Shown: one piece after another, positions 16,080 to 34,252 of the stretch
Numbering within the stretch: position 1 is the first letter of the stretch
Layout of the letters: each line of letters starts with the position of its first letter
Assembly: GCA_025361065.1 (NCBI GenBank)
Contig: JANYAY010000110.1
Span: 1-34,252 of the forward strand
Direction of reading: 5' to 3'
Length of the DNA: 34,252 bases
Source: Deltaproteobacteria bacterium
Lineage (GTDB): Bacteria > Desulfobacterota > Syntrophia > Syntrophales > Smithellaceae
Translations under genes and position numbers: made by a program
The notes under the pieces: model-generated
What the model was told of the DNA's origin: nothing
What the model saw: the letters and a program-made list of their open reading frames with translations, nothing else
Database searches by the model: none

Positions 16080-16221
16080 GAGACTGTGTAGTAATTACCG
16101 TTTCGTCATTCCGGACAAGTGAAACGCGATCCGGAATCCAGTATTATCAGTAAGTTCTGGATGCCGGTTTTCACCAGCATGACGATGTTGATGGCTTTAT
16201 CTGATATTACGACACAGTCTC
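16080..16221. repeat. MITE-like element with 4-base target duplication
   Basis: GAGACTGTGTAGTAAT (16080-16095) and ATTACGACACAGTCTC (16206-16221) are 16-base terminal inverted repeats with one mismatch. ATTC flanks the element on both sides (16076-16079 and 16222-16225). Removing the element with one ATTC rebuilds a sequence closely related to 14904-14940. The core (CGTCATTCCGG, GGAATCCAGTATTATCAGT, CTGGATGCCGG, GCATGACGAT) is nearly the same as in the element at 23283, which has different ends. Confidence 0.75.
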
Positions 16222-16346: not shown

Positions 16347-17369
16347 ATGTGCGCAGATTTAGATAGATCGAAAGCGGTCGAGTTGGCCATAACCCAAATT
16401 GAAAGGCAGTTCGGCAAGGGATCAATAATGAGATTGGGTGGCAAAGAGCGTGTTGCCGATGTCCCGGCGATATCCACAGGATCTCTGAGCTTGGATATAG
16501 CCTTGGGCACTATGGGTGTGCCGCGCGGCAGAATTGTCGAAATCTACGGGCCGGAATCCGGCGGCAAAACAACGCTCGCTCTGCATATTGTTGCCGAAGC
16601 ACAAAAAGCCAATGGCCTGGCGGCTTTTATTGATGCCGAACATGCCCTCGATGTGACCTATGCCAAGAAAATCGGCGTCAACACGGATGACCTCCTCATT
16701 TCACAACCGGATACGGGCGAACAGGCCCTGGAAATTGCTGAAACGCTGGTGCGCAGCGGCGCGCTGGATGTTCTGGTCATTGACTCCGTTGCGGCTCTGG
16801 TTCCCAAGGCGGAGCTGGAAGGCGAAATGGGCGACGCCCAGATGGGCCTGCAGGCCAGACTCATGTCGCAGGCACTGCGCAAGCTTACCGGCAGCATCAG
16901 CAAATCCAGAACAACCGTAATCTTTATCAATCAACTGCGCATGAAGATCGGTGTCTTTTTCGGCAATCCCGAAACGACGACAGGCGGTAACGCCTTGAAA
17001 TTCTATGCATCCCAGCGCCTGGACATTCGCAAGATGACATCTCTGAAAACCGGACAGGATGTAACGGGCTTCCGGACAAAAGTTAAAGTAGTTAAAAATA
17101 AACTGGCGCCTCCGTTTAGGGAAGCGGAATTCGATATTATTTTTGGCGAGGGCATATCCCGCGAAGGTGATGTTCTGGATTTAGCCGCCGAACAGGGCGT
17201 TATTGAAAAAAGCGGTGCCTGGTATTCTTACAAGGGCGATAGAATGGGACAAGGCCGTGACAATTCCCGTACCTTCCTGAAAGAAAATCCTGACATTATG
17301 AAACAAGTGGAAAGTGAAGTGAAGGATAAACTGGGTATAAAAATTGTCGAGCAGGAAGAGGCTAAGTGA
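16347..17369 (+). CDS. recA: Recombinase RecA
   Basis: The 340-residue product matches RecA over its whole length: Walker A GPESGGKT at 68-75, [28 protein letters not shown], the loop L1/L2 region with [13 protein letters not shown] and [18 protein letters not shown], and the Walker B segment. It forms nucleoprotein filaments for strand exchange and stimulates LexA self-cleavage. GGAGG lies eight bases before the ATG. The stop overlaps the recX GTG by four bases. The C-terminus is short and less acidic than in E. coli. In many relatives thpR directly precedes it, but here repeats and mazEF intervene. Confidence 0.97.
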
Positions 17370-17959
17370 TTCGCTATTCCCAGTCGCGTTATAAAAACTA
17401 CCGCGGCAGCAATAAATCTTTGAATAAGGCAACGTTGCCGGATGATCCTGTGCCGGATAATGCAGATAATCCAACTAAAACTGCTGATTATCTGGATTTG
17501 CATCATGCTTTGCAAAAAGCATATCGACTTTTGTCGTTGCGGCCGCACAGCGCCCGCGAAATAGAAAAAAAGCTGCGGGAAAAAGGATTTTCCGCAACCG
17601 TTATTAAAGAAGCACTGGAAAAACTCCGCGATTTGCAGTATCTGGATGACACTTCTTTTGCTTCTCAATGGGCGCGTAATCTGGCAGTGAATAAACTCTG
17701 GGGCAACAGAAAAATTATCGCGAGCCTGAAGGAAAAAGGTATCGCCGCATATTTAATCGACGCGGCGATAGAAGAAGTACGGCAGGAATTTCCGGAAGGA
17801 GAAGCCTTGGCTCGTTTAATTAAGAAAAACACGGCCGGGGAAAAAGGCGGCCGGCAGGATATTAAAGAAAAAAAACGTATATTTCAGAGACTGCTGGGCA
17901 GAGGATTCCCGGCGGGCTTGATATTCAGCCGTTTAGAAAAAAATAACTTGGTCGAATAA
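17366..17959 (+). CDS. recX: Regulatory protein RecX
   Basis: The 197-residue protein begins at GTG 17366, overlapping the recA stop (GTGA). The N-terminal 45 residues are polar and poorly conserved. From about residue 50 the RecX three-helix repeats follow: [60 protein letters not shown], and a final repeat with [20 protein letters not shown]. RecX binds in the groove of the RecA filament and limits its activity. Translational coupling to recA is clear. Confidence 0.92.
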
Positions 17960-18059: not shown

Positions 18060-20702
18060 ATGGTGAAGACGGGCAGTGAAATTCGGGAAAGTTTTTTAAA
18101 ATATTTCACAGGGAAAGGGCATACCATAGTGGCGAGCTCATCGCTCATTCCCAAAGACGATCCGACGTTAATGTTTACCAATGCGGGGATGGTACAATTT
18201 AAAAACGCCTTTTTAGGTTTGGAAAACAGAGGCTACACAAGGGCGGCGTCATCCCAGAAATGCGTCCGCGCCGGTGGCAAACATAACGACCTGGAAAATG
18301 TCGGTGTTACCGCCCGCCATCATACTTTTTTCGAAATGCTCGGTAATTTTTCCTTCGGCGATTATTTTAAGGAAGAAGCAATTGCCTGGGGCTGGGAATA
18401 TTTAACGGAAGTTGTGAAGCTCCCGAAAGATAAGCTCTGGGTAACGGTTTTTCAGGATGACGATGAAGCTTACGACATCTGGCATAAAAAAATGAACGTA
18501 CCCGCCGACCGCATTGTGCGGATGGGAGAAAAAAGCAATTTCTGGATGATGGGAGATACCGGTCCCTGCGGACCCTGTTCCGAAATAATTTACGATCAGG
18601 GCGCAGACGTCGGCTGCGGAAGGCCCGAATGTGACCTCGATTGCGGTTGTGACCGCTATCTGGAAATATGGAATCTGGTTTTTACTCAGTTTGACCGAGA
18701 CGAGAAGGGAAATTTGAATCCCCTGCCCAAACCAAACATTGATACGGGAATGGGATTAGAGCGGCTCACAGCGGTTATCCAGGGAGCGAAAAGCAATTAT
18801 GACACCGATTTATTCGGCGGTATCATTGCATTTGTCGAAAAAATCAGCGAAAAAAAATATGGCATAAATGCCGACGACGACACCTCCATCCGGGTTATTG
18901 CCGATCACAGCCGGGCCGTGACATTTTTAATCGGTGACGGCATCCTGCCTTCCAATGAAGGCCGGGGTTATGTCCTGCGGCGCATTTTACGCCGGGCGGC
19001 ACGCCATGGCAAGATGCTGGGAATTAATAAACCTTTTCTTTATCAGTGCGCCGAAGTTGTCATCGGCATGATGAAAGATGTCTATCCCGATCTGGAATCC
19101 AAGTCATCCTTCATCACCAAGGTTATTATCAATGAAGAGCAGCGTTTTATGGAAACACTCGACGCCGGGTTGCGTATTTTGCAGGAAGAAACAGCCGCAC
19201 TAAAGAAAGCAAACAAGAATGTTCTTCCCGGAACGCTGGTGTTTAAACTCTACGACACTTTCGGGTTCCCCACAGATTTGACGGCGGATATTGTAAAGCG
19301 CGACGGATTCACCCTGGATACGGCAGGATTTGCAACCGAGATGGAACAGCAGCGCGAACGTGCCCGCGGGGCATGGAAAGGCAGTGGGGAGGAAGCCATT
19401 GGAGAGTGCTATTTAAAATTGTCCAGCTCAGGAATTGCCACTGACTTCTGCGGTTATGAAGGAGTCACTAAGGCCGACTCGCAAATTATCACCATCATTG
19501 TTGACGGTAAAACAGTCGAATCCCTGTTCGAGGGTCAGGAAGCGGAAATTGTTTTGGAGACAACGGCATTTTATGGCGAATCCGGCGGTCAGGTAGGCGA
19601 TACCGGCTATCTGGAAGGCAACGGTTTTGTCTTTGCCGTGCAGGATACAAAAAAACCTGTTGAAAAACTCTTCGTGCATAAAGGCATTGTCCAAAAAGGA
19701 AATATTAAAACCGGCGATAAAGTTCATTTGATTGTGGACCTGGAAAAACGAAAAGCAATTCAGGCCAACCATTCCGGCACACATATTTTGCAGGCGGCGC
19801 TCAAAGCCGTGTTGGGCGATCATATCAAACAATCCGGTTCGCTCGTTAATACCGAAAGGCTGCGCTTCGACTTTTCTCATTTTTCCAAAATCAGCGACGA
19901 AGAGCTCCAGAGAATTGAAGAAATTGCCAACGACATAATTCGAAAAAATATAGAAGTGGTGACCGAGGTCTGCGCTCTGGAAGACGCCCTCAAAACCGGC
20001 GCGACGGCGGTATTCGATGAGAAGTACGGCGCAACGGTGCGGATTGTGAAAATGGGTGAGATGAGCATGGAGCTCTGCGGCGGCACGCATGTTACCCGCA
20101 CCGGGGATATCGGTTTATTGAAGGTGCTGCATGAATCAGCAATCGCTGCGGGCGTCCGCAGAATCGAGGCCGTCACCGGCAAGCAGGCGCTCGTTCATGT
20201 ACAACAGGCGGAAGAAGAATTGAAAAAGGCGGCAGGTTTATTTAAGGCCAGTCCCCTGGAACTGGCGGACCGCGCCGAAAAACTGCTCAAACACACCAAA
20301 GATCTGGAAAAGGAAATTGACGCACTTAAAGGGAAACTGGCCGCCAAAGACTCCGGAGATTTATTGGGTCAGGTGAAGGAAATCGGCGGCATAAAAGTAC
20401 TGGCAACGGAAGTAAATGTCAGCGATGCCAAAACGCTGCGTGATTTCGGCGACAAGCTGCGCGACAAGATGCAATCCGGAATTATTCTTCTGGCAGCCAA
20501 AGCAGAGGGGAAGGCCCTGCTGCTTTGCATGGTTACCAAAGACCTGGACGGGAAATTTCATGCCGGAAACATTATTAAGGAACTGGCTCCGCTGGTTGGC
20601 GGGAAGGGTGGCGGTCGCCCCGACATGGCCCAAGCCGGCGGCACCCAGCCGGAGAATTTGGGGAAAGTATTTCCGGCTTTAGAAAAATTGATTGCGAAGT
20701 AG
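18060..20702 (+). CDS. alaS: Alanine--tRNA ligase
   Basis: The 880-residue product contains the class II core (FTNAGMVQFKNAFLG, RAASSQKCVRAGGKHNDLEN, HHTFFEMLGNFSFGDYFKEE, GMGLERLTAV), the editing domain with zinc ligands H571 and H575 (HSGTH) and C673/H677 (CGGTH), and a C-terminal DHHA1 domain ending GGKGGGRPDMAQAGG. It charges tRNA-Ala and hydrolyses mischarged Ser- or Gly-tRNA. CGGAGG precedes the ATG at suitable spacing. The family length is about 875, so the gene is complete. It follows recA-recX as in many deltaproteobacteria. Confidence 0.97.
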   Translation: MVKTGSEIRESFLKYFTGKGHTIVASSSLIPKDDPTLMFTNAGMVQFKNAFLGLENRGYTRAASSQKCVRAGGKHNDLENVGVTARHHTFFEMLGNFSFGDYFKEEAIAWGWEYLTEVVKLPKDKLWVTVFQDDDEAYDIWHKKMNVPADRIVRMGEKSNFWMMGDTGPCGPCSEIIYDQGADVGCGRPECDLDCGCDRYLEIWNLVFTQFDRDEKGNLNPLPKPNIDTGMGLERLTAVIQGAKSNYDTDLFGGIIAFVEKISEKKYGINADDDTSIRVIADHSRAVTFLIGDGILPSNEGRGYVLRRILRRAARHGKMLGINKPFLYQCAEVVIGMMKDVYPDLESKSSFITKVIINEEQRFMETLDAGLRILQEETAALKKANKNVLPGTLVFKLYDTFGFPTDLTADIVKRDGFTLDTAGFATEMEQQRERARGAWKGSGEEAIGECYLKLSSSGIATDFCGYEGVTKADSQIITIIVDGKTVESLFEGQEAEIVLETTAFYGESGGQVGDTGYLEGNGFVFAVQDTKKPVEKLFVHKGIVQKGNIKTGDKVHLIVDLEKRKAIQANHSGTHILQAALKAVLGDHIKQSGSLVNTERLRFDFSHFSKISDEELQRIEEIANDIIRKNIEVVTEVCALEDALKTGATAVFDEKYGATVRIVKMGEMSMELCGGTHVTRTGDIGLLKVLHESAIAAGVRRIEAVTGKQALVHVQQAEEELKKAAGLFKASPLELADRAEKLLKHTKDLEKEIDALKGKLAAKDSGDLLGQVKEIGGIKVLATEVNVSDAKTLRDFGDKLRDKMQSGIILLAAKAEGKALLLCMVTKDLDGKFHAGNIIKELAPLVGGKGGGRPDMAQAGGTQPENLGKVFPALEKLIAK

Positions 20703-21064: not shown

Positions 21065-22057
21065 TTGCAATATATTGAGATTCACAGAGAGGACATATTC
21101 CCTTTTCATGATTACCATCTTAATTCCCTAAAACACATAATCCTTGATCCGGCAAAACATGTTGATCTTTCCACTCTGTCAGAACAGGATGCCATCGAAT
21201 TGATCAAGCAATCCTATGGCTTTTTATCCCCGGCCATTGATGTTTCCATTCAGGACGGGATTGCCACAATCACCCTTCAGGAACAGCGTGCCGAAAAAAT
21301 CAACGAGGCCCTGAAGCTTTTCCAGAAGGGCGTAAGAGAGGCGCAACAAGGCTCTTACCAGAAGGCGATTAAATATTTCATCAAGGTTATCGAAACCGTT
21401 CCCCAACATGTCGATGCCCGCCGCAATCTGGCGATGGCCCACCTTGAGAACGGCAACATTCCACTGGCCAAGGAGCTACTGCTGCAATGCCTCAAGATTG
21501 ATCCAACCAATGTCTGGACCTTCGTGCTTCTTGGCAATATTGCGACGAAGCATGAACGGGCGTTTGATGTAGCGGCTTTTTATTATGAAAAGGGATTGAC
21601 CATTAATCCTGATGACAACCTGTTGCTCAATAACTTTGCCGCTTTGTGTATGGAGATGGGCAGTATTGACCAAGCGCGGGAACTTTTCGAGAAAGCTTTG
21701 AAGATTGATCCCAGCTATCCCAATACATATTTTGGATTGGCACTCCTGCACCGTGTTACAAATTCTCCTGAAAAGGCACTGAAAATTCTGGATCAGCTTT
21801 TTATGCAGCCACCATTGACGGATATCCGCAGTGCGCCGGTTTACGGAAATGCGCGTGACCTCTATCTGGAGATAAGCACAGAGCTTGCTAACAAGGAGAG
21901 CGGGACGCTGATGAATGGAATCATGGCGCGAAAAATGGCACTGGAAGCAACTACGGGATATTCGATTAGCATCGAAATGGACAATTCCCTTGAATATATT
22001 TCCGCCGTATCCCAGATGGCCTGGAAGCATAACCGCGATGAACATCGGATTCGCTAA
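21065..22057 (+). CDS. Tetratricopeptide-repeat protein, possibly 3'-truncated
   Basis: The 330-residue product has a unique N-terminal region of about 75 residues and then tandem TPR units from about 80 to 245 (for example QKAIKYFIKVIETVPQHVDA, LAKELLLQCLKIDPTNVWTF, QARELFEKALKIDPSYPNTY). TPRs mediate protein binding. A non-repeat C-terminal part (GNARDLYLEISTELANKESG, SLEYISAVSQMAWKHNRDEH) looks like the start of another domain and ends abruptly. The frame can only begin at TTG 21065, because TAA lies just upstream, and there is no good ribosome binding site, so the start is uncertain. No signal peptide is seen. Confidence 0.65.
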   Translation: MQYIEIHREDIFPFHDYHLNSLKHIILDPAKHVDLSTLSEQDAIELIKQSYGFLSPAIDVSIQDGIATITLQEQRAEKINEALKLFQKGVREAQQGSYQKAIKYFIKVIETVPQHVDARRNLAMAHLENGNIPLAKELLLQCLKIDPTNVWTFVLLGNIATKHERAFDVAAFYYEKGLTINPDDNLLLNNFAALCMEMGSIDQARELFEKALKIDPSYPNTYFGLALLHRVTNSPEKALKILDQLFMQPPLTDIRSAPVYGNARDLYLEISTELANKESGTLMNGIMARKMALEATTGYSISIEMDNSLEYISAVSQMAWKHNRDEHRIR

Positions 22058-22278: not shown

Positions 22279-22306
22279 ATCGCCGTTAAGAACGGGCGAT
22301 CTTTTT
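22279..22306 (+). terminator. Terminator after the TPR gene, shared with the vapC end
   Basis: ATCGCCGTT pairs with AACGGGCGAT (one bulged G) around AAG, followed by CTTTTT. It sits between the convergent TPR and vapC genes. Confidence 0.65.
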
Positions 22307-22715
22307 AAGGTTCTATCCTTTTCAATCCGCTAATCCGTGCTAGATGTTTCCGGTCAAACGAATAGATATCATTGATGTTGAGTTTCTCCATTAACGCGAC
22401 GATATAGCCATCAATAAAATCAATATTCTTTTCCTCATAATGATCTAATGCCCTGGCAACAATTGAGCCGTTAATTACTTCCAAGCCCGGCGTAGCCAGA
22501 ATGGATCTGATCATTGGTGCGATATCTTTTGCCTTCAAATCGTAGGCGGACTCCAAAACCCAGATTAATTCCGTCAGCACCAAGTCGGCTGTTACCAGTT
22601 TGACTGTGCCTGAAGCTGCCTTATTCAAAAGCGCGTCCACGCGGTCAGCCTTAGCGGGATCGTCAGCCGTGAGATAACGAACAAAGAGGTTGGTATCAAT
22701 GAAACAGCGCTTCAT
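22305..22715 (-). CDS. vapC: VapC-type PIN-domain ribonuclease toxin
   Basis: The 136-residue protein has the PIN active-site acids in order: D7 in CFIDTNLFVRYL, the Glu of ADLVLTELIWVLE, the Asp of NIDFIDGYIVALM, and the final Asp of IYSFDRKHLARI. These bind the metals used to cut RNA, usually tRNA or rRNA in this family. Its ATG overlaps the antitoxin stop by four bases (ATGA), giving translational coupling. No disruption is seen. Confidence 0.92.
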   Translation of the reverse strand: MKRCFIDTNLFVRYLTADDPAKADRVDALLNKAASGTVKLVTADLVLTELIWVLESAYDLKAKDIAPMIRSILATPGLEVINGSIVARALDHYEEKNIDFIDGYIVALMEKLNINDIYSFDRKHLARISGLKRIEP

Positions 22716-22957
22716 ATATTTTCCTTCCTAACCCTTTGGGCAACAGCGGCCTTAGCTTGCGCTCGTTCCGCTTCAAATGAGGTTGACGCCTTTTTCTTCA
22801 CTGCGCCGCGGAATGCTTTTATCGTTTTGAGAGGCTGGATGTAAACCAGCTCTCCCTTAAGTATAAAATCTACCCTGTCGTTAGGAATTATCCCTATGGC
22901 ATCTCGTATAGACTTTGGAATAGTAACTTGACCTTTTGCGGTAACTGTTGATTGCAT
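22712..22957 (-). CDS. vapB: VapB-type AbrB-like antitoxin
   Basis: The 81-residue product starts with a SpoVT/AbrB DNA-binding hairpin, STVTAKGQVTIPKSIRDAIG followed by IIPNDRVDFILKGELVYIQP. A positively charged tail (AVKKKASTSFEAERAQAKAA) should contact the toxin. The start at 22957 is chosen over an upstream in-frame start at 23008 because GGAGG lies eight bases before it. It is expected to repress the operon through the inverted repeat at 22977-23004. Confidence 0.9.
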   Translation of the reverse strand: MQSTVTAKGQVTIPKSIRDAIGIIPNDRVDFILKGELVYIQPLKTIKAFRGAVKKKASTSFEAERAQAKAAVAQRVRKENI

Positions 22958-22976
22958 AATCATTACCTCCATTAAA

Positions 22977-23018
22977 ATTCTTACTTGTAAACATAGGTAA
23001 GAATTCATCGTCTGTCAA
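22977..23018 (-). promoter_or_regulatory. vapBC promoter and operator
   Basis: On the minus strand TTGACA (23018-23013), 17 bases and TATGTT (22995-22990) form the promoter. ATTCTTAC (22977-22984) and GTAAGAAT (22997-23004) are perfect 8-base inverted half-sites 20 bases apart that flank the -10 box. Confidence 0.65.
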
Positions 23019-23282: not shown

Positions 23283-23422
23283 CTTTGCATAACTATGTAA
23301 AACCACCAATTTCGTCATTCCGGTGAATACCCTGCAGGGCACACGAACCGGAATCCAGTATTATCAGTGGTTTCCTGGATACCGGCCTTCGCCGGCATGA
23401 CGATTAGAGGGGTTGTGCAAAG
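23283..23422. repeat. MITE-like element inserted between promoter and XRE/ImmA gene
   Basis: CTTTGCATAAC (23283-23293) and GTTGTGCAAAG (23412-23422) are inverted repeats with one mismatch. The core contains CGTCATTCCGG, CCGGAATCCAGTATTATCAG, CTGGATACCGG and GCATGACGAT, nearly identical to the element at 16080 but with different hairpin loops and different ends. AGGGAGG occurs on both sides (23273-23279 and 23428-23434) but not directly at the tips, so a target duplication is doubtful. Confidence 0.65.
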
Positions 23423-23441
23423 CTCTCAGGGAGGAATTGAA

Positions 23442-24581
23442 ATGCCGACTAACAATTTGGCAGATCGTTTAAAGAAAGCCCGCGAGTCCGCAGGATTGAC
23501 TATCGGCGATGCCGCATCAAGACTTGGCTTTGCCAATTATCAAACTTTGAGCAATATTGAAAAGGGCGAGCGCGAAGTTAAAGCAAGTGAATTAGCTCTT
23601 TTTGCCAAAACGTATTTCTGCAATCTCAGCACCCTTCTCATGGATGATGATCAGCCGCTTGCCGCGATAAATCTTCTTTGGCGGAAGGCCCCGTCTGGTG
23701 AAAGAAAAAAGGAAATTGAAGCTTATATAAAGAATCGTTTTGAGCAGTATCATTTTCTGGAGAGGTTGCTGGAAATAGACAAAGAGAGCAATGCCCGATT
23801 GATTACAGTTACACCATCAGACATCAGGACGAACAATCAAATTGACGGTCTTGCTTCAAAAATAGGCAATCTGCTGAATTTGGGCAGCAGGCCGGCGCTT
23901 TCACTCCAAAAAGTAATGGAGCAAATTCTTCAAATAAAGATCCTTTTTATTGAACTATCCGACTTTGGCTCGGCTGCAGCAACAGTCCACCCCGAATTAG
24001 GCGCCGCCATAGTAGTCAACAATGAAGAAGCGCCGTGGCGGATTAATTTTACTCTTGCGCATGAATTATTCCATATTATAACGTGGGATACTTTCAGCCC
24101 CGCAGAAATGGAAGCCGACGAACAACTTTTTACAGATATTGAAAAAAAAGCAGATCGATTTGCATCCGCCCTCCTTTTGACGGAAGCCGAAGTTCGACAA
24201 GAATTAACCAAAAAGATAATGGACCAGCAACTTCCACTTTCCGATATTGTTGATGTGGCACGTGAGTTCGGTGTTTCCACATCAGCCATACTTTACCGCA
24301 TGGCAAATTTGCGGCTAATACCGTGGGACAAAGCGAATGAGTTATCGAAAAACGATGAATTAACAATGATTGACCGTCGCCTGAAAAAAGATTCTGCGAT
24401 TGACGTGCCTGTTTCGGAGCGTTTTATATCCCTCTCGGCTAAGTGTCTCCGAAAAGGGTTGATTTCCCGTGGTAAGTTTGCGGAGATTTTCAGTATAGAC
24501 CGTGCAGATATTGACGAGTTTTTGGAGTATCGAGGGTTGTCCGAAAAGGAGGATGTATCGGTTGAAATTGTGGCTGCTTGA
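23442..24581 (+). CDS. XRE-type HTH plus ImmA/IrrE-type metallopeptidase
   Basis: The start at ATG 23442 follows GGGAGGAATTGAA. An upstream in-frame stretch containing WIPAFAGMT is translated repeat DNA, not protein. The 379-residue product has an N-terminal XRE helix-turn-helix (about 7-65: LADRLKKARESAGLTIGDAA, NIEKGEREV). It then has a COG2856 peptidase domain with zinc motif HELFH at 207-211 and the downstream EKKADRFASALLL supplying a further ligand, and a C-terminal region to 379. In phage and mobile-element systems such proteins sense DNA damage and cleave a repressor; XRE/ImmA fusions paired with a PIN gene resemble toxin-antitoxin loci. The PIN-like gene downstream overlaps this one by about 20 bases. 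Confidence 0.9.
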   Translation: MPTNNLADRLKKARESAGLTIGDAASRLGFANYQTLSNIEKGEREVKASELALFAKTYFCNLSTLLMDDDQPLAAINLLWRKAPSGERKKEIEAYIKNRFEQYHFLERLLEIDKESNARLITVTPSDIRTNNQIDGLASKIGNLLNLGSRPALSLQKVMEQILQIKILFIELSDFGSAAATVHPELGAAIVVNNEEAPWRINFTLAHELFHIITWDTFSPAEMEADEQLFTDIEKKADRFASALLLTEAEVRQELTKKIMDQQLPLSDIVDVAREFGVSTSAILYRMANLRLIPWDKANELSKNDELTMIDRRLKKDSAIDVPVSERFISLSAKCLRKGLISRGKFAEIFSIDRADIDEFLEYRGLSEKEDVSVEIVAA

Positions 24582-25086
24582 TGCGGATGTTGTCATTAAA
24601 TTTCTTGAGATTGATGTTTTCGATAAGCTGGCGGGGTTGCATGAGTTGCATGCTTCCTCATCCGTAATTGATGAGGTTAAATATTATCACTAGGACGGCA
24701 AAAAGATACCTGTAAACTTTAGAAAACAGTATATAGGCACAGGGCTTATCATTGAATCTTCTGCATCTGTTGATGAAATTAAAGATATTCTGCAACTGCT
24801 GCCATCATTGAAACGAGAAGCAATTCACGCTGGCGAAATTGAATCCCTTGCCATTCTTTTAAGGGAGAAGACTTTGACATTTTGTACTTTTGATGCTGCG
24901 GCAATTAGGACATTGCCATTTCTTAGCGTATCAGCCCGAGCCATATCAGCCGAACGTCTGCTCAATGTATCCGGGTTAACTTTGTCTTCCGGGAATAAGC
25001 TCGATGTCAGATTGTCGGAAGCTTATTTCAGGAGTAATGTAGATGAAGGGAAAAAGAACTTCATCTATTCGCTTGGAAAAAAATGA
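24562..25086 (+). pseudogene. PIN-domain-like partner gene with an in-frame amber codon
   Basis: The frame begins inside the 3' end of the XRE/ImmA gene, at TTG 24562 (nine bases after AAGGAGG) or ATG 24553. It encodes KLWLLDADVVIKFLEIDVFD, typical of a PIN first strand with its metal-binding Asp, and continues to VIDEVKYYH, where TAG (24691-24693) interrupts. The same frame then stays open to 25086 (GKKIPVNFRKQYIGTGLIIE, HAGEIESLAILLREKTLTFC, FDAAAIRTLPFLSV), including the E-I-E-S-L and C-T-F-D-A-A segments expected of PIN proteins. The likeliest cause is a nonsense mutation that silences a toxin-like gene. Readthrough is possible but unsupported here. Confidence 0.75.
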
Positions 25087-25134
25087 TGCCCAAAATCAAA
25101 TTAATTCAGGATAATATTAGCTATGATATTCTTA

Positions 25135-25435
25135 CTCACCCAGATCTATGCAACTTCAATTGTTGACACGGGCGCGAAGCATTATTTGAGGAAAAGAAGA
25201 TGATCATCAGTTGCAGCCGCCGCACGGATATTCCCGCTTTTTTCAGTGACTGGTTTTTTAACCGGATTCGCGAAGGCTATGTTCTTGTGCGCAATCCGCT
25301 GAATGCCCATCAGGTTCACCGGATTTCGCTTACGCCATCTGATGTTGACTGCATTGTATTCTGGACAAAGAACCCCGGGCCAATGCTGGACAGGCTTCAG
25401 CTCCGGCAAAACTATTCCTACTATTTTCAATTCAC
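25135..25435 (+). repeat. 301-base duplication of the DUF1848 gene start and upstream region
   Basis: This stretch aligns without gaps with 26741-27041, offset by exactly 1606 bases, and includes 65 bases upstream of each ATG. The copies have drifted by scattered substitutions. Similarity ends abruptly at 25435/27041. Confidence 0.85.
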
Positions 25436-25448
25436 GCAGGGAAGGTAA
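25200..25448 (+). pseudogene. Truncated DUF1848 copy
   Basis: The 82 codons correspond to the first 78 residues of the full DUF1848 protein at 26806 (MIISCSRRTDIPAF, then NRIREGYVLVRNPLNA, QNYSYYFQFT). The copy then ends in a foreign TQGR and stop. The whole cysteine-rich C-terminal part is missing. GAGGAAAAGAAG precedes the ATG, so a short product might be made, but it lacks the metal-binding region. The break at 25435 is where unrelated coding sequence in another frame begins. Confidence 0.8.
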
Positions 25449-25612
25449 AAGGCACTGATCCTCGTGATCCGTCGGGAAGAGCATGGTTCATAATCAACGA
25501 TGAGAGGGTGCAGTACAGGGGAAGCAGCGGGTTCATTATCCAATGGTTAGACAACTCCCATAAATACCTATCTTTGCCCCACCAGGTTATTGAGGAGTTG
25601 ACGAAAACCTGA
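25436..25612 (+). pseudogene. 3' fragment of an unrelated gene joined to the truncated DUF1848 copy
   Basis: Starting exactly at the duplication break, a different frame is open for 58 codons to TGA 25610-25612 (AGKVKGTDPRDPSGRAWFII, NDERVQYRGSSGFIIQWLDN, then SHKYLSLPHQVIEEL). The composition looks like true protein, but there is no start codon at its beginning. I do not recognise the parent protein. It is most likely the tail of a gene whose front was lost in the rearrangement that placed the DUF1848 copy here. Confidence 0.55.
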
Positions 25613-25654
25613 CTCATTGTATGCAGCATTAGGATACCAGCTTTTTTCTTGATC

Positions 25655-25933
25655 CTATACCGCCCCTGCTTTTATTGCCGGCTTGAGCTCATAATTTGGG
25701 CATAGCCTCTTGTAGAGAAACTCCGGTGCAAAGTCCGCCCCGTTTGGCCAGACAATCGTGCCAAGATCTTTTTGAAGAAAAACCTTTGCGAAAAACACCT
25801 TTTCCTTCAAAGGTTCGAACATATTACCCCACAGTTCGTCTTGAAGATCTATTTCACCCTCTATGCCATCGGCAAACTTAATCCAGATACGACAATCACC
25901 CTTATGTTTTGCTTCCTGTAATGACGGCAGCAT
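25655..25933 (-). CDS. DUF2442 protein
   Basis: The 92-residue product has the DUF2442 pattern: a short strand, IWIKFADGIEGEIDLQDELW, then MFEPLKEKVFFAKVFLQKDL and GTIVWPNGADFAPEFLY, where the W-P-N-G-A-D-x-x-P-E-x-L-Y box is the family hallmark. The function is unknown; such genes are commonly found beside DUF4160 genes, as here, and are suspected to belong to toxin-antitoxin-like pairs. GGAG lies seven bases before the ATG, inside the end of the DUF4160 gene. The frame is intact. Confidence 0.85.
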   Translation of the reverse strand: MLPSLQEAKHKGDCRIWIKFADGIEGEIDLQDELWGNMFEPLKEKVFFAKVFLQKDLGTIVWPNGADFAPEFLYKRLCPNYELKPAIKAGAV

Positions 25934-25937
25934 GATT

Positions 25938-26196
25938 TTACTCCAAAGGTTTGATTGGTTTTAATTCTTTTCTTTCTCGAGCCAATACCCAGTCTTCTTT
26001 CAGGTCAGCTTTATGATACTCTCGCCATTCCTGTACCAGTCCCAAAACGCGCGGGTAAACGTCCTTCAACAACTTCGCCCGTATCAATTGCAATAACTGT
26101 TTCATAATCGCCATATCTCGCATGAAAGTGCGCAGGTTCATGATCATTATAATACATCGCAATAATTATTCCAAGAAATCGGCTGATTTCGGGCAA
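25938..26196 (-). pseudogene. DUF4160 gene with a one-base frameshift
   Basis: Starting at TTG 26196, six bases after GGAGG, the frame encodes PEISRFLGIIIAMYYNDHEP followed by AHFHARYGDYETVIAIDTGE, the DUF4160 core with its H-x-P-x-H-F-H box. It then reads off into FGTGTGMARVS and stops. The neighbouring frame continues the family pattern (VLGLVQEWREYHKADLKEDW, then VLARERKELKPIKPLE) to 25938. One extra base near 26045 (or loss of two) explains the switch. The total length of 259 bases is one more than 86 codons, consistent with an insertion. The intact DUF2442 gene follows four bases later. Confidence 0.75.
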
Positions 26197-26805
26197 ATGC
26201 TTCCTCCGTTTGGTTATAGTTATTTTCGCCTTCCTGATGTAAAATATAACATATCCATGTTGTTTGTAAAGCATAAAAATCTTATGATAATAATGATATG
26301 CATTGCTTTTGCTGGTAATTATTTGCAGTCCAGTGGTCACCCATTGTTTACTTGCTACATAATTACGCCCACTTTCAACATTGTTCGCGTACTCTTACCG
26401 ATGGCACTTTATTTCCCTCTGCTTTTAATGTTATGATTCAATCTCCAAGAATGAACCAGCGGGAATCTGACGCCTCGTAACCCGCAGCTGTTAGATTTTA
26501 AGCGAGATTAAGACAAAGGAAGCCCAAGGAAGTAATTGCCTGCACCGGAATGATTTGCTGGGAAATAGAGCAAATGCATTTACGTAAGAAAAGGTGGATG
26601 ATTTAAATGTGATTGCGGAATTGGTTGCTGTGTTGGGTTAATAAGAGGTGATTCCTTGCCAGCTAACCTTCAATGTATAAGCCATTCTTCCTGGTAGTCT
26701 TGAGTAGTGATAGCAAAAATGCTAATATCACTTATCCTTGCTCACCCAGATCTATGCAGCTTCAATTGTTGACAAGGGTGAGAAGCATGATTTGAGGAAA
26801 ATAAA
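26197..26805. other. Gene-poor region between DUF4160 and DUF1848
   Basis: About 600 bases without a convincing gene. Short frames on either strand lack ribosome binding sites and family patterns. The interval 26450-26530 has GC-rich complementary bits (CAGCGGG and CCCGC-AGCTG), not enough to name an RNA. The right end (26741-26805) is the upstream part of the DUF1848 duplication and contains TTGACA at 26768-26773, without a good -10. Confidence 0.5.
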
Positions 26806-27690
26806 ATGATTATCAGTTGCAGCCGCCGGACAGACATTCCCGCTTTTTACAGCGACTGGTTTTTTAACCGGATTCGCGAAGGCTATGTTCTTGTGCGAAA
26901 TCCGCTGAATGCCAATCAGGTCAGGAATGTATCGCTCGCCCCTCCGGATGTTGACTGCATTGTCTTCTGGACAAAAGATCCGGCGCCCATGCTCGATCGG
27001 CTTCAGCTCCTGCAAAACTATTCCTACTATTTTCAATTCACATTGACACCCTATGACAACGACATTGAACCGAATCTGCCGCCCAAAACGAAAATTATTG
27101 ATACGTTTCGGAGGCTTTCCGATAAAACAGGGGTCAATAGAATCATCTGGCGGTATGACCCGATTTTGCTCTCGAAGAGAATCAGCCCCGCCTATCATGT
27201 TGATCATTTCGGTGATATGTCCCAACGGCTTACCGGTTATACTGAAAAATGCGTAGTCAGTTTCCTGGATATGTATCGCCACCTGCAGGGCAAAAGTGCA
27301 GGCCTTTCCATTCGACCGCCCGACGAATCGGAAATGTACACCATTGCCAAAGAAATTGCCTACATCGCCGGCAACCATAATATTAAAGTAGAAACATGCG
27401 CCGAGAAGATCGATCTTGCTGATCTTGGTATCGATCATGGCAAATGTATTGATGATCGCCTGATTGCGGAATTGACCGGAACGAATCTGAAAATTGCCAA
27501 GGATAAAAATCAGCGGGAACTTTGCGGCTGTGTCGTAAGTTGCGATATCGGCGAATACAATACTTGCCGGCATGGCTGCCACTACTGCTATGCCAATGTA
27601 AATCAAAAGAAAATTGATCAGAACCGATTATTGCATAACGCTCAATCGCCATTGCTCATTGGAGACAATTCCTCATGCAAATCTCAGTAA
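26806..27690 (+). CDS. DUF1848 protein with C-terminal CxxxCxxC cysteine cluster
   Basis: The 294-residue protein begins with the DUF1848 signature MIISCSRRTDIPAFYSDWFF followed by NRIREGYVLVRNP, then VDCIVFWTKDPAPM, NRIIWRYDPILLS and IKVETCAEKIDL. Near the C-terminus are C240, C242, C246 and then C254, C258, C261 as CRHGCHYC, the spacing used by radical SAM enzymes to hold a [4Fe-4S] cluster, followed by YANVN. The role is unknown; DNA-repair or modification functions have been suggested for similar cysteine arrangements, but nothing here proves one. Its 3' end overlaps the next gene by 16 bases, so the two are coupled. GAGGAAAATAAA precedes the ATG. Confidence 0.85.
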   Translation: MIISCSRRTDIPAFYSDWFFNRIREGYVLVRNPLNANQVRNVSLAPPDVDCIVFWTKDPAPMLDRLQLLQNYSYYFQFTLTPYDNDIEPNLPPKTKIIDTFRRLSDKTGVNRIIWRYDPILLSKRISPAYHVDHFGDMSQRLTGYTEKCVVSFLDMYRHLQGKSAGLSIRPPDESEMYTIAKEIAYIAGNHNIKVETCAEKIDLADLGIDHGKCIDDRLIAELTGTNLKIAKDKNQRELCGCVVSCDIGEYNTCRHGCHYCYANVNQKKIDQNRLLHNAQSPLLIGDNSSCKSQ

Positions 27691-28283
27691 TTCTTGCTCA
27701 TCCCGATCCTGCAAGTTTCAACCATGCCATTGCTCAAGCAGCAATCGATGCGCTAAAAGCAAATGGGCACACCGTCTTTTTTCACGATCTCTACCAGGAG
27801 AAATTCAATCCGCTGCTGAGCGGTAAAGAAATAGCCAAAGGCGCAACCCTACCGGTAGCAATAAAAAACCATTGTAAAGAAATTGCGGCGGCGGATGGAA
27901 TTGTGATTGTGCATCCCAACTGGTGGGGACAGCCTCCGGCGATTTTGAAAGGTTGGGTTGATCGGGTGATTCGACCGGGTGTTGCCTATGAGTTTCGAGA
28001 AGGCGACAACGGCGAAGGCGTCCCCAAAGGATTGCTCAAAGCGCGGGCAGCGCTGGTGTTCAATACCTCCAATACCGCAACGCAAAGAGAAAAATATTTT
28101 TTCGGCGATCCGCTGGGAACAATCTGGAAAAACTGTATCTTTGGACTCTGTGGTGTTGCTGGTTTTCATCGCCGGATGTTTAACGTCATCGTAACCAGTT
28201 CGGATATCGAACGCAAGAACTGGCTTCACACTGTTCGGCAGGACATTGATATCTTGTTTTCTAAAGATGATACTGTAAGATAA
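27675..28283 (+). CDS. NAD(P)H:quinone oxidoreductase, flavodoxin-2 fold
   Basis: The 202-residue product has the flavodoxin-like fold of the NQO1/KefF/MdaB group: ISVILAHPDPASFNHAIAQA, the H-D-L-Y-x-E-x-F-N-P segment, VIVHPNWWGQPPAILKGWVD with the flavin-binding W-W-G-x-P-A-x-L-K-G-W, and FGLCGVAGFHRRMF near the end. It would reduce quinones or similar compounds with two electrons from NAD(P)H, using FAD or FMN. GGAG lies about nine bases before the ATG, which is within the DUF1848 gene. Confidence 0.9.
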   Translation: MQISVILAHPDPASFNHAIAQAAIDALKANGHTVFFHDLYQEKFNPLLSGKEIAKGATLPVAIKNHCKEIAAADGIVIVHPNWWGQPPAILKGWVDRVIRPGVAYEFREGDNGEGVPKGLLKARAALVFNTSNTATQREKYFFGDPLGTIWKNCIFGLCGVAGFHRRMFNVIVTSSDIERKNWLHTVRQDIDILFSKDDTVR

Positions 28284-30601: not shown

Positions 30602-33583
30602 CTAGTCCTCAAAAATATGTTCCATAACGAGCTTCTCTTCCAGGCTCATATTGGCTTCGTTGATCTTTTCCTGTGCCGAAAATACCGCCACGGCTGCCGA
30701 TTTTGATGCGTGGGGAAAATATTTGTTTAATGCTTCCTTCAGTTTTTGCGGTGTTGCCGATAATATTTCCTCCCGGAATTTCTGACGCATCTCATCGGTA
30801 ATCCCCGCAATGCTGCGCATCAACGATACATGGCCGCGACTTCCCGGATCCATCGGACGATCGAGCATACCGATCGTACTGATGATGGCCTTGTCCATAT
30901 CATCAGCAGAGATCTCATTTTGGGCAAAGAAGACTTCTGCCTCCCGGAATACTTTCAGCGTCTCTGCAAGGTGCGGATCACGATAAGAAAGAAAAGAGAA
31001 GAGGCCGAGAGATGGGTCATAGGAAGACATCCCTCCGTACGCCCCACCCTGCACCCGGATATGCTTATAGAGATAACTATTGGATAATTCCCGGGCCGCA
31101 ACCATCAGCATCGCCGCCGCAGGATCTACATATGCCGGTGCAGTAAGCACCCGGGCAACATAAGATACTTGCGATGGCACGGCTATTCCCGCCCACACCG
31201 CCGCAAGCGGCAGTGGCGCCGACTTTTGTTTGTTTGCCGTTGCAGGTAGTTTATTGACTAGCCCGGCCATATTATCCGCGACCAGCTTCAAACCTTCTGT
31301 TTCAGCTGTGATGTTAATCATCAGGTTGTCGGCACTGAAAATCATTGCTTTTAACTGCCTGAGCTTTTCCACAAGCTCCTGCTTAGCCGCGGGAAAGTTA
31401 CGGGCTGCGGCTTGGACAAAACGCAATTGCGTGCGTCCGTTCCATTGCTCGTCACGATAAGCCGGCAGGGTGAGGGCCGCCCCCGCCGCCCTTCTTGCAA
31501 AAACATGTCCCGAAGGAACAATTGCCGATTGCAGATTATTCTTTCGCTCCGCAATCAAATCATACATTCTCTCTTCATTGCCCAGATCACCGGCACAAAG
31601 AATATCGCTGATAATATCCAGCGCCTCCGGCAAATTACGATAAAGGGCAGCACCGGAAACAATCATTTTTTGCCATGAACTATTGGCATCAGCGGAGAAT
31701 CCGGCACCGGTATCCAGACCTAAGCCTCCCATTTTCAGGGCAATACGCTTGGCCATTTCATCATAAGACAATCCGGCTGCACCCATACCGGAAGTTATCT
31801 TGCCCAAAAGCGGCAGATACTGCTGGAGTTCCTCAGGCACATGGGAAATATCAAAAACCAGATCGAAATAAGCGATGCCGTTGGTAAAAATATCATGAAC
31901 GAGCGCCGGAACTCCGCCGATGGAAACATTTTGCAGTGGAATTGTTTCCACTGCCCGGGGAATATCGGAGATATTTAATTTGGGGATAGTGGCCGCCGCA
32001 TCCTCGGAATCCGGTTCCGACTGAAATTTCTTTAATTCCTTCGCCTGCCCATTGATTTCCGCCAGTTGGGCATCATTAAACGATGCTCGAAGTTTGACCA
32101 TCTTTTCCCGAAACTCGTTTTCTTTCTTGGCACTAAAGTCAGGGTCGGGCTCCATAATCGCCAGGATTCGATGCTGATTATCCAATAGCCAATGCTTGGT
32201 CATTTTCTGAAATAATTGCGGATCTGCCGCCCAGAGCCCGCGAATTTTTTCAATAACTACCGGGAAATCCAGACCGACTAAGGGATCGCCGTCGTAAAGC
32301 CAGGATTGAAATACATTCCCCATTAAGGCAATTCCGTAAGGATATGAACCCCGGACAATTTCTTTGCCGTGGAATTCGATTTGATGCAGGATTCCTTCGA
32401 TCAGGTCGGTGTCATATCCGGTGGATACTATGTCGCGCAGGGTTGCGAAAACAAGTTTTTCAATGTTCACAGCATCGGCGCTGTCCGTATTTCTCAAACC
32501 GACGGCAAACAGCAACTGCTTCAGATCGCCCTCAATTCCACTGACCGGCGTCAGGTCTTCGCCAAGCCCGGAATCGATCAGGGCTTTGCGCAAAGGACTG
32601 GCCGAACTGCCGGTAAGCAGCCCCGCAATAATTTCCAGGATAAGAGAATTTTCGTAATCTGTGTTTTCGGACATCATCCAGGCCAGATTAACCGACGCTT
32701 TCCTGGCCAGAGATTCATTTTTATCTACCGGATAGGTGCTGTGAATAATCCGGGGCTTGGTCAGGCGTTTCTGACTTTTTATTGCCGAATTAACTTTCAC
32801 GCGGCGAAATCCTGCCAGCATTTCGGCCAGAAAAGCCAGATGCTCGGCAGTCGGTATATCTCCATAAATAAAAAAACGGGCATTAGAAGGCGAATAATAA
32901 GTCCGATGGAACCGGCAAAATTGATCATAAGTAAGAGTCGGAATAACATCGGGATCACCGCCGGAATCAAAGGAATAAACGCTGTTGGGATAAATGCCCT
33001 CCTGTATCGCCTTATACATCAGTGAATCCGGAGAAGAGTACGCCCCTTTCATTTCATTATACACAATGCCGGAGATTGTAAGATCGCTTCTTAAATCATC
33101 CGGCACGGAAAATTCCAAATGATGACCTTCCTGCAGGAATGTCTCTGGCAGCAGACGCGGATGCAGCACCAGATCGGTATAAACACGGGCCAGATTGAAA
33201 AAATCACCCTTTATCTGGCTCGCTACGGGATAGATGGTTTTATCCGGATACGTAAAGGCATTGATGAATGTTTGCAGTGTGGACCGCATCAATTCTTTAA
33301 AAACATCCTTGAGCGGATATTTTTCGGAGCCGGCCAGCACGGAGTGCTCTAAAATATGAGGTAGCCCCGTAGAATCGGCGGGCGGAGTGCGAAAACCAAT
33401 CGCATACAAATTTTCGCGATCATCGCTGTGCAGATGCAAAACTTTGGCGCCGGTTTTTTTATGTTCGATTTCATAGGCGGTTATTCTTACGCCCGGTAAT
33501 GTTTCTACCCGCAACACTTTAAATCCGTGTAACAATGTACCTACTTCCAGAGTTGGCTGGGGGCATTTCAATTGATCAGACAT
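30602..33583 (-). CDS. M16C-family zinc metalloprotease, presequence-protease (PreP)-like
   Basis: The 993-residue product carries the inverted zinc motif HILEH (H76, E79, H80) in GLPHILEHSVLAGSEKYPLK, and the third ligand Glu in GIVYNEMKGAYSSPDSLMY. The remaining length gives four homologous domains forming the closed chamber of PreP/Cym1/falcilysin enzymes, including the M16C-associated region in the middle. Such enzymes degrade unfolded peptides up to about 65 residues long. No signal peptide is present, so it should be cytoplasmic. GAGGAG precedes the ATG. A 17-base inverted repeat lies just upstream. Confidence 0.95.
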   Translation of the reverse strand: MSDQLKCPQPTLEVGTLLHGFKVLRVETLPGVRITAYEIEHKKTGAKVLHLHSDDRENLYAIGFRTPPADSTGLPHILEHSVLAGSEKYPLKDVFKELMRSTLQTFINAFTYPDKTIYPVASQIKGDFFNLARVYTDLVLHPRLLPETFLQEGHHLEFSVPDDLRSDLTISGIVYNEMKGAYSSPDSLMYKAIQEGIYPNSVYSFDSGGDPDVIPTLTYDQFCRFHRTYYSPSNARFFIYGDIPTAEHLAFLAEMLAGFRRVKVNSAIKSQKRLTKPRIIHSTYPVDKNESLARKASVNLAWMMSENTDYENSLILEIIAGLLTGSSASPLRKALIDSGLGEDLTPVSGIEGDLKQLLFAVGLRNTDSADAVNIEKLVFATLRDIVSTGYDTDLIEGILHQIEFHGKEIVRGSYPYGIALMGNVFQSWLYDGDPLVGLDFPVVIEKIRGLWAADPQLFQKMTKHWLLDNQHRILAIMEPDPDFSAKKENEFREKMVKLRASFNDAQLAEINGQAKELKKFQSEPDSEDAAATIPKLNISDIPRAVETIPLQNVSIGGVPALVHDIFTNGIAYFDLVFDISHVPEELQQYLPLLGKITSGMGAAGLSYDEMAKRIALKMGGLGLDTGAGFSADANSSWQKMIVSGAALYRNLPEALDIISDILCAGDLGNEERMYDLIAERKNNLQSAIVPSGHVFARRAAGAALTLPAYRDEQWNGRTQLRFVQAAARNFPAAKQELVEKLRQLKAMIFSADNLMINITAETEGLKLVADNMAGLVNKLPATANKQKSAPLPLAAVWAGIAVPSQVSYVARVLTAPAYVDPAAAMLMVAARELSNSYLYKHIRVQGGAYGGMSSYDPSLGLFSFLSYRDPHLAETLKVFREAEVFFAQNEISADDMDKAIISTIGMLDRPMDPGSRGHVSLMRSIAGITDEMRQKFREEILSATPQKLKEALNKYFPHASKSAAVAVFSAQEKINEANMSLEEKLVMEHIFED

Positions 33584-33607
33584 CTATTAATTCTCCTCAT
33601 GCTGTTA

Positions 33608-33687
33608 ATTCCGTTTCCAAATCAAGCGCTACCTTTGTTGGCCTCCTCCCGGCCGCCGCAGTATCATCTCTGATTTGGAAACGGAAT
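33608..33687. repeat. Perfect 17-base inverted repeat upstream of the M16C gene
   Basis: ATTCCGTTTCCAAATCA (33608-33624) and TGATTTGGAAACGGAAT (33671-33687) are perfectly complementary around a 46-base loop, which itself contains GGCC-N7-GGCC. No T-run follows on either strand. It could be a small mobile repeat or an mRNA structure between two minus-strand genes. Confidence 0.7.
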
Positions 33688-33738
33688 ATCAAGATTATTA
33701 TTCCTATATTTCCCGATCCGGCGAAAGCAATATTCCTG

Positions 33739-34252
33739 TCAAATATTTTTGAAGCGCGAGACTTGCTCCTGATAGAGCTTCATTTCTTCAGGGGTGACTT
33801 TTTCCATAATGCACTCTTCAACCAGATAACTTGTTATCTTATCATCAAATTGAATTCTGGCACTGGCCTTCCCCGTCAGTTCCTTTCCTATTTCATCTTT
33901 CACATATAAAAGAGTCCGTCCTCCCTCTTCCAGTTTTTGGGTGACGGCACCCTTTTTCGGGAGTGGGAGCCCCATCTTTGTAACACGTTCTTCAAATTCC
34001 TGCCGGTCAATTTCCGTTTTAACCCCATCTACCAGAAATAAAATAACATTCAAGGGTATTAGCGTCACAATGCCTGCTATCGTTCCTGCCGTACCTACGA
34101 CGATACCGGAATAATGAGCGAATTTTTCGTAACGCATCTCCTGAGGTGTTAATTTCCGGAATTTCAAAATGATGCGGCAGCCATAGAAATCCTTAAAACT
34201 CTCCTGCAACTGATAGTGTTTTAAAGACCGCAAGATAAATTCTGCGATATGA
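33739..34252 (-). CDS. Hypothetical membrane-associated protein, cut by the right window edge
   Basis: The minus-strand frame is open from the window edge to the stop at 33739 (at least 170 residues). A TTG at 34233 is a possible start, but sequence before it (HIAEFILRSLKHYQLQ) looks coding, so the true start is probably outside. One hydrophobic stretch (SGIVVGTAGTIAGIVTLIPL followed by NVILFLVDGV) is long enough for one or two membrane passes. The rest is charged and helical, with EEGGRTLLYVKDEIGKEL and a terminal helix EEMKLYQEQVSRF. I do not recognise a family. It is upstream of the M16C gene on the same strand. Confidence 0.6.
   Translation of the reverse strand, partial: HIAEFILRSLKHYQLQESFKDFYGCRIILKFRKLTPQEMRYEKFAHYSGIVVGTAGTIAGIVTLIPLNVILFLVDGVKTEIDRQEFEERVTKMGLPLPKKGAVTQKLEEGGRTLLYVKDEIGKELTGKASARIQFDDKITSYLVEECIMEKVTPEEMKLYQEQVSRFKNI

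Follow-up and report, generated by a model that had tools for sequence, protein, structure and literature searches.

The start of a DUF1848 gene is fused, in a 34,252-nt stretch of DNA from a bacterium of the family Smithellaceae (the whole stretch is called the window here), to the orphan tail of an McrC-type nuclease gene. With about an even chance of being right, the joint is read as the mark left by one homologous crossover of the Campbell type, through which an incoming molecule entered a resident DUF1848 gene in its 5' part, within a defence hotspot. The kind of event is already known; this case is unusually legible, with diverged alleles that allow the crossover to be placed within about a dozen bases. 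It is a natural, readable record of how defence genes may swap beside core genes without a detected mobile element, and it leaves general views unchanged, the event type being ordinary and well recorded.

A divergent repeat ending at a sharp joint

Bases 25127-25435 and 26733-27041 are identical at 266 of 309 positions in a gap-free alignment (direct count), and the repeat search finds two gap-free repeat families at a single offset of 1606 nt. The first-pass annotation had described bases 25135-25435 as a gap-free duplicate of 26741-27041; the absence of gaps, the offset and the break hold, but only 260 of these 301 positions are identical by direct count (86%), hence the copies are divergent. 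The shared upstream stretch, given there as 65 bases, extends over 73 nt, of which 64 are identical. The repeat is far beyond chance, since a 494-nt query of the host genome matches copy 2 at E 8.1e-103 and finds no third copy at E <= 0.001.

The upstream copy (copy 1, 25200..25435, + strand) comprises the first 236 nt of the gene only and covers positions 1-80 of the 262-position PF08902 profile, a truncation already proposed from the sequence. The downstream copy (copy 2, 26806..27690, + strand) is full length at 294 aa and spans profile positions 1-262 (E 2.3e-109). The likeness of the copies ends abruptly after 25435, directly behind 30 identical bases. At 25436 the window switches to a startless frame of 58 codons (25436-25609, with its TGA stop at 25610-25612), which lies in a different reading frame from copy 1, while the frame of copy 1 runs 3 codons beyond the joint and then stops. 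The exact switch and the clean recombination joint of the earlier reading are thereby borne out.

A natural family uniting DUF1848 with an McrC tail, which the first-pass annotation had named as contrary evidence, is rejected: DUF1848 relatives, compared over their first 100 codons, continue as DUF1848, and both full-length DUF2357 relatives lack DUF1848. The exact joint sequence has 0 matches in viral contigs, and a 25400-27045 query reaches 1 plasmid and 2 phage records, all within its DUF1848 part. The region 24500-28000 has no Rfam match at E <= 1. No literature was found under the name DUF1848.

The orphan tail and its full-length parents

The 25436..25612 segment (+ strand) encodes the last 58 codons and stop of an McrC-type DUF2357/PDDEXK_7 nuclease, with 45% identity to the C-terminus of the protein at locus L029, 34% to that at L060 and 28% to that at L067. 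The suspicion that it is the tail of another gene is thus confirmed, and a full-length parent, when searched for, is found. Among 69 pattern-matched stretches of genome contigs, one (L029) encodes a relative of the tail, at a tblastn E of 3e-16 that is relative to the candidate stretches only; there the tail forms the end of an 843-aa protein with DUF2357 and PDDEXK_7, and the upstream neighbour is an AAA_5 domain gene. The L060 locus (genome G256) holds an 838-aa frame with 50% identity to L029, likewise with DUF2357 and PDDEXK_7 and next to an AAA_5 gene, and its matched stretch contains one TAG. Full-length McrC parents therefore exist elsewhere in the phylum. Matches to the L029 protein occur in 9 of 395 genomes of the phylum: the host tail, L029's own genome G168, a strong match in G256, one in G238 (residues 83-596, 29%) and five weak ones. 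Against the host genome this query matches the tail only (E 2.5e-11), and further McrC gene sequence is not detected.

A four-row alignment of the tail has 7 invariant columns, among them W17, Q26, R28 and G29. Searches with the 57-aa tail peptide give no match at E <= 1 in Pfam or NCBIfam and none in plasmids; it occurs in 1 of 59 genomes of relatives and in 1 of 155 by profile search, each time the host itself. Its homology to the C-termini of full-length proteins identifies the tail as an McrC remnant and not a family member, the DUF2357 and PD-(D/E)xK domains residing in the parents. PMC11090510, in the portion consulted, describes McrC as DUF2357 plus a PD-(D/E)xK nuclease in one operon with McrB. 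The tail's parent shares this type IV restriction architecture and lies beside an AAA_5 gene, whereas the window keeps 58 codons only, so no function can remain. An apparent second orphan McrC tail is present in G168 (contig C105, L067 1465-1866), with 49% identity to L029 over residues 742-840; it adjoins a PIN gene on the opposite strand, in a genome that also holds a full-length parent.

Descent of the two DUF1848 copies

Copy 1 is identical over 237 nt at 0.895 to G001, 0.869 to G003 and 0.852 to copy 2, where G001 and G003 are sister species and the usable genus mates. The two copies differ at 34 sites in 236 nt, and at 27 of these the state of copy 1 recurs in G001 or G003; therefore most of the divergence seems older than the meeting of the copies. 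Over 30602-34233 of the window, the DNA of G000 diverges by ~15% from G003 and by 17% from G001, and divergence between the copies is thus similar to that between species of the genus in this region. From these comparisons the two copies look like alleles of different descent.

Such descent bears on the idea, put forward by the first-pass annotation, of a duplication in place. If the DUF1848 region had been duplicated in tandem and a later deletion had fused copy 1 to the McrC tail, this would account for the 73-nt flank that both copies have and that is not found in the other family genomes searched. Trees in which the copies are sisters are nevertheless rejected with 9 rows (cost 18.5 log-likelihood units, p-AU 0.008) and are borderline with 8 rows, where G031a is absent (16.4 units, p-AU 0.055); together with the 27 of 34 shared states and the swap of affinity at nt 159-171 described below, this makes a simple duplication in place very unlikely. 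Both trees include G011, which did not serve as a MaxChi outgroup; G031a belongs to the composite and control MaxChi set as well as to the 9-row tree, and G031b, whose contig ends at nt 179, was left out of trees and MaxChi. The recombination tests exclude five sequences of at most 56% amino acid identity (G021, G002, G022, G006 and G040).

Among the changes private to one sequence, those that replace an amino acid number 3 of 4 in copy 1, 0 of 5 in copy 2, 2 of 4 for G001 and 3 of 7 for G003. By these counts copy 1 has no clear decay, as would be expected if the joint were an assembly chimera of two coexisting haplotypes. The genome, in 186 contigs with 3.94% contamination, would allow for this, and the 30 nt identical in both copies end exactly at the joint. 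Those 30 bases, however, should take an assembler onward from copy 1 to copy 2; a path into the McrC tail would require the same 30-nt stretch in the tail's own 5' neighbour; the G+C content of the tail (0.486) is also close to that of positions 1-20700 of the contig (0.487). A chimera is improbable.

A reciprocal switch of affinity to G003 within the gene

With G003 as the other parent, MaxChi places a shift of copy 2 from G034/G014/G028/G031a-like to G003-like sequence within nt 156-178 of the gene for all four outgroups (permutation p 0.0005-0.006). Left of nt 159-171, G003 agrees with copy 1 (17 of 22 sites), whereas to the right it agrees with copy 2 (9 of 10; p 0.0015), a reciprocal exchange of affinity as a Campbell insertion predicts; the interval corresponds to an inferred crossover at 25358-25370 in copy 1 and 26964-26976 in copy 2. 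With a cut at nt 165, picked from the same data and resting on few informative sites that cluster at nt 117-139, identity to G003 is 0.897 (nt 1-165) and 0.817 (166-236) for copy 1, and 0.824 (1-165), 0.930 (166-236) and 0.867 (237-885) for copy 2. When copy 1 (1-165) and copy 2 (166-885) are combined into a composite, none of 4 tests against G003 gives a break (p 0.43-0.87). The swap and the break-free composite together represent the pattern that one reciprocal crossover at this point would be expected to leave, and copy 2 would then be a hybrid, donor-like from nt 1 to ~165 and resident-like in the remainder.

The genus mate G001 behaves differently from G003. It stays closer to copy 1 both left and right of the crossover, without a switch (p 0.58; 0.887 identity to copy 1 in nt 166-236), and when it replaces G003 the best break in copy 2 falls at nt ~738, not ~165, with each of the 3 outgroups (p 0.0005-0.0095). 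A comparison of G003 with G001 likewise has its break at nt ~738 in 2 of 3 tests, the third break lying at nt 763, and for this reason G001 itself looks recombinant. Copy 1 alone has further breaks, both weak, at nt 85-100 and at nt 139-147 (p 0.016-0.044), and copy 2, when tested against copy 1 with either G034 or G014, has one at nt 193-198 (p 0.005 and 0.029). Three tests of the predicted donor allele (p 0.049, 0.058 and 0.30) show it to be uniform only in part. The additional breaks in G001, copy 1 and the donor stretch indicate that more than one recombination touched the DUF1848 gene. The tests comprise 18 + 13 + 14 triples and 60 controls, with uncorrected p values. One of the 60 control triples, which lack the window copies, reaches p <= 0.01, and since its break lies at nt 156-162, this stretch may be recombination-prone in general.

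The constancy of G001 fits a linear fragment captured by homology-facilitated illegitimate recombination. On the right, the homologous crossover would lie within DUF1848 or past it; on the left, the incoming McrC tail would have been joined illegitimately to the resident DUF1848 at nt 236; and the mosaic in copy 2 would be older and unrelated. One event of this kind would yield the identical layout, and in PMC5361080, as far as the text was available, it is suggested as a putative mechanism for displaced type VI secretion (T6SS) modules of Vibrio cholerae. Were the crossover at nt ~165, however, nt 166-236 should be equal in both copies, yet 10 of 71 sites differ; were it further right, the reciprocal switch with G003 would go unexplained. 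Capture of a linear fragment is thus rather unlikely, though it deserves consideration.

Proposed insertion by a single crossover

In the preferred reading, single-crossover insertion, the incoming molecule would most simply have been a circle or an end-joined fragment of ~1606 bp. Its cargo would have consisted of the 58-codon McrC tail, the DUF2442/DUF4160 pair, the 14-codon helicase tail, and a foreign DUF1848 flank with the first 236 nt of the gene. Before entry, an illegitimate end-to-end closure would have linked its DUF1848 fragment, at nt 236, with the McrC tail. A single crossover at gene nt ~159-171 would then have placed the molecule in the chromosome, leaving copy 1 resident up to the crossover, donor from there to the joint, and truncated, and leaving copy 2 with a donor 5' end and a resident 3' end in a whole frame. 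The cell presumably kept a working DUF1848 gene, because copy 2 is a whole frame. The repeat, the joint, the origin of the tail, the swap of affinity to G003 and the hotspot are direct observations, whereas we infer the circular intermediate, the direction of transfer and the illegitimate closure from the sequence. The direct duplication of a homologous segment flanking an insert, characteristic of Campbell insertion, is present; the failure to find a circle, an integrase or a donor genome counts against the single-crossover reading. The earlier proposal that the intervening block moved along agrees with this reading, by which the block probably came with the donor segment.

Comparable products are reported for Escherichia coli (PMC3240628, in the part consulted), where 56 of 60 Lac- clones gave a duplication-diagnostic PCR product and 14 sequenced clones carried partial duplications, 109-950 bp long, which were attributed to one crossover with a circular molecule. 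In both cases part of the homologous segment is duplicated around the insert (309 bp here); in E. coli the molecule was an experimental plasmid, whereas here a natural event between diverged alleles is deduced from sequence.

Upstream flanks of DUF1848

The flank of copy 1 (25127..25199, + strand) is common to that of copy 2 (26733..26805, + strand), but not to G003 and not clearly to G001. Four flank types are distinguished: G001/G003/G014, G034/G031a, G028/G031b (the second and third grouped by eye) and the window pair. Shuffle tests give p 0.002 for G003-G001 and G003-G014, and only 0.116 for G001-G014. The window flank resembles sequence that follows the restriction enzyme gene, clearly in G071 (p 0.002 and 0.004) and less so in G028 (0.014 and 0.076), and the copy 2 flank has an unexpected match to G001 (p 0.004). 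DNA matches to the window copy begin 0-17 nt before the start codon in 10 genomes, the host and G031 excepted; G031 has matches at 3 places, one being a 32-nt contig end. The record of G031 contains two versions of the alaS-DUF1848 region (L035 on contig C16 and L036 on C94) and may be a mixture.

The change of flank type at or within ~17 nt of the start codon and the swap at nt 159-171 would suit a broader idea, namely that the DUF1848 5' end serves as a recurrent docking port, at which small transposase-free molecules with toxin-antitoxin or restriction genes and a DUF1848 5' end of their own enter through single crossovers, and each leaves a working hybrid gene and a truncated predecessor. 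Such integrase-free turnover of cassettes is a doubtful generalization at this stage.

Genes between and around the copies

The block between the copies was described from the sequence as a DUF2442/DUF4160 pair with gene-poor DNA. The pair is there, both members passing their Pfam cut-offs: the antitoxin-like DUF2442 gene has an intact frame (25655..25933, - strand; PF10387, E 1.4e-11), and the toxin-like DUF4160 gene (25938..26340, - strand; PF13711) proves to be split over two frames. Both genes are whole in G024. Scores against the NCBIfam models fall below the cut-offs, with 63.3 bits for DhiT (cut-off 100) and 15 bits for DhiA (cut-off 200). The DNA behind the pair is also not merely gene-poor, as it holds, before copy 2, the last 14 codons (26597-26638) and stop of a Schlafen-group-3 helicase gene with an S24-like end (26597..26641, + strand). 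This tail agrees with the C-terminus of the G074 helicase at 12 of 14 residues; the 14 codons alone give E 0.24, and DNA matches extend over 31-65 nt in G071, G008, G024 and G074 (83% over 65 nt in G071).

Apart from DUF2442 and DUF4160, open frames of at least 50 aa between the copies have no Pfam match at cut-off, so that no integrase was found, and a site-specific element was dropped as an explanation on that account. A group II intron remnant near 26424-26462 was likewise dropped, the match being a short dispersed repeat, which has further matches in G000 (contig C127), G004, G031, G457 and G520.

Upstream of copy 1, the window contains recA (16347-17369, PF00154) and recX (17366-17959, PF02631), followed by the 880-aa alaS (18060..20702, + strand; PF01411), whose relatives share 78-89% amino acid identity over full-length matches and the same gene order. 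Next comes the 5' half of a TPR gene (21065..22057, + strand), which covers residues 22-330 of a 663-aa protein with 84% identity to G074 and lacks the remainder; DNA homology to G074 ends at 22056. On the L029 contig, the C-terminal part of a similar TPR protein precedes the McrB-like and McrC-like genes. A PIN toxin and MazE-like antitoxin pair (22305..23008, - strand; PF01850, PF04014) is followed by a gene for an HTH and M78 (ImmA/IrrE) protein (23367..24581, + strand; PF06114, PF01381) that resembles the RosmerTA antitoxin RmrA (PADLOC, E 7.2e-28). RmrA is reported to pair with varied toxins (PMC10440598, as far as consulted). The partner-like gene behind it (24502..25086, + strand) has an in-frame stop at 24691-24693, and neither of its pieces matches a PADLOC or Pfam family. 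A 28-nt direct repeat (16124-16151 and 23341-23368, 93%, 7.2 kb apart) has its second member at the start of the HTH-M78 frame. To the right of copy 2 lies a Flavodoxin_2 gene (27675..28283, + strand; PF02525).

A family-wide hotspot downstream of alaS

Comparison of synteny in relatives, as the first-pass annotation had recommended, places the joint in a setting that the sequence alone could not reveal. The site downstream of alaS is a family-wide hotspot of varying restriction-modification genes, toxin-antitoxin genes and gene stubs, with alaS as its conserved left border and the flavodoxin gene as a frequent right border. The survey covers 51 genomes, 45 of them with an alaS match; leaving out G072 (partial alaS), it yields 46 alaS-downstream regions from 44 genomes, several of which end early at contig ends. 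A methylase with a BsuBI/PstI enzyme occurs in 8 of the 46, enzyme fragments without methylase in 4, DUF1848 in 9 and a flavodoxin match in 17; in 7 the flavodoxin gene stands 57-220 nt behind alaS with no surveyed marker between. Eight of the 15 loci compared (L031-L038) show alaS, a variable stretch and then DUF1848, with flavodoxin after DUF1848 in two of these eight (L032 and L038) and also in L030, which lacks alaS.

The TPR gene lies near a Schlafen-group-3 helicase gene in both G074 and G008, with a MazG-like gene between them in G008. G024 is layered much as the window is, with alaS, a TPR stub, a HipA gene, a helicase tail and enzyme fragments, and from the layering of the two the joint appears as one layer in a site of repeated replacement. 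Orphan tails in such hotspots can be named, and former occupants (McrBC-like, helicase and TPR protein) thereby deduced.

Among the matches listed in the literature search, nothing looks relevant by title to defence hotspots at alaS. Hotspots of horizontal transfer between core genes, many without mobile elements, are described for 80 species (PMC5635113, in the part available). They share with this locus the conserved flanks, the variable content and recombination in flanking genes; the present survey differs in covering 46 regions at one locus in one family, and the recombining gene here, DUF1848, is itself not core. In Vibrio cholerae, sequential displacement of T6SS effector modules leaves orphan immunity genes (PMC5361080). 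There, as here, arriving modules orphan genes or gene ends at a fixed locus, whereas the orphans there are intact immunity genes attributed to homology-facilitated illegitimate recombination, and here they are nuclease and helicase tails, to which the linear mechanism fits less well. At four surveyed loci (L109, L115, L116 and L128), the flavodoxin gene after alaS matches in two separated pieces only, which suggests internal loss.
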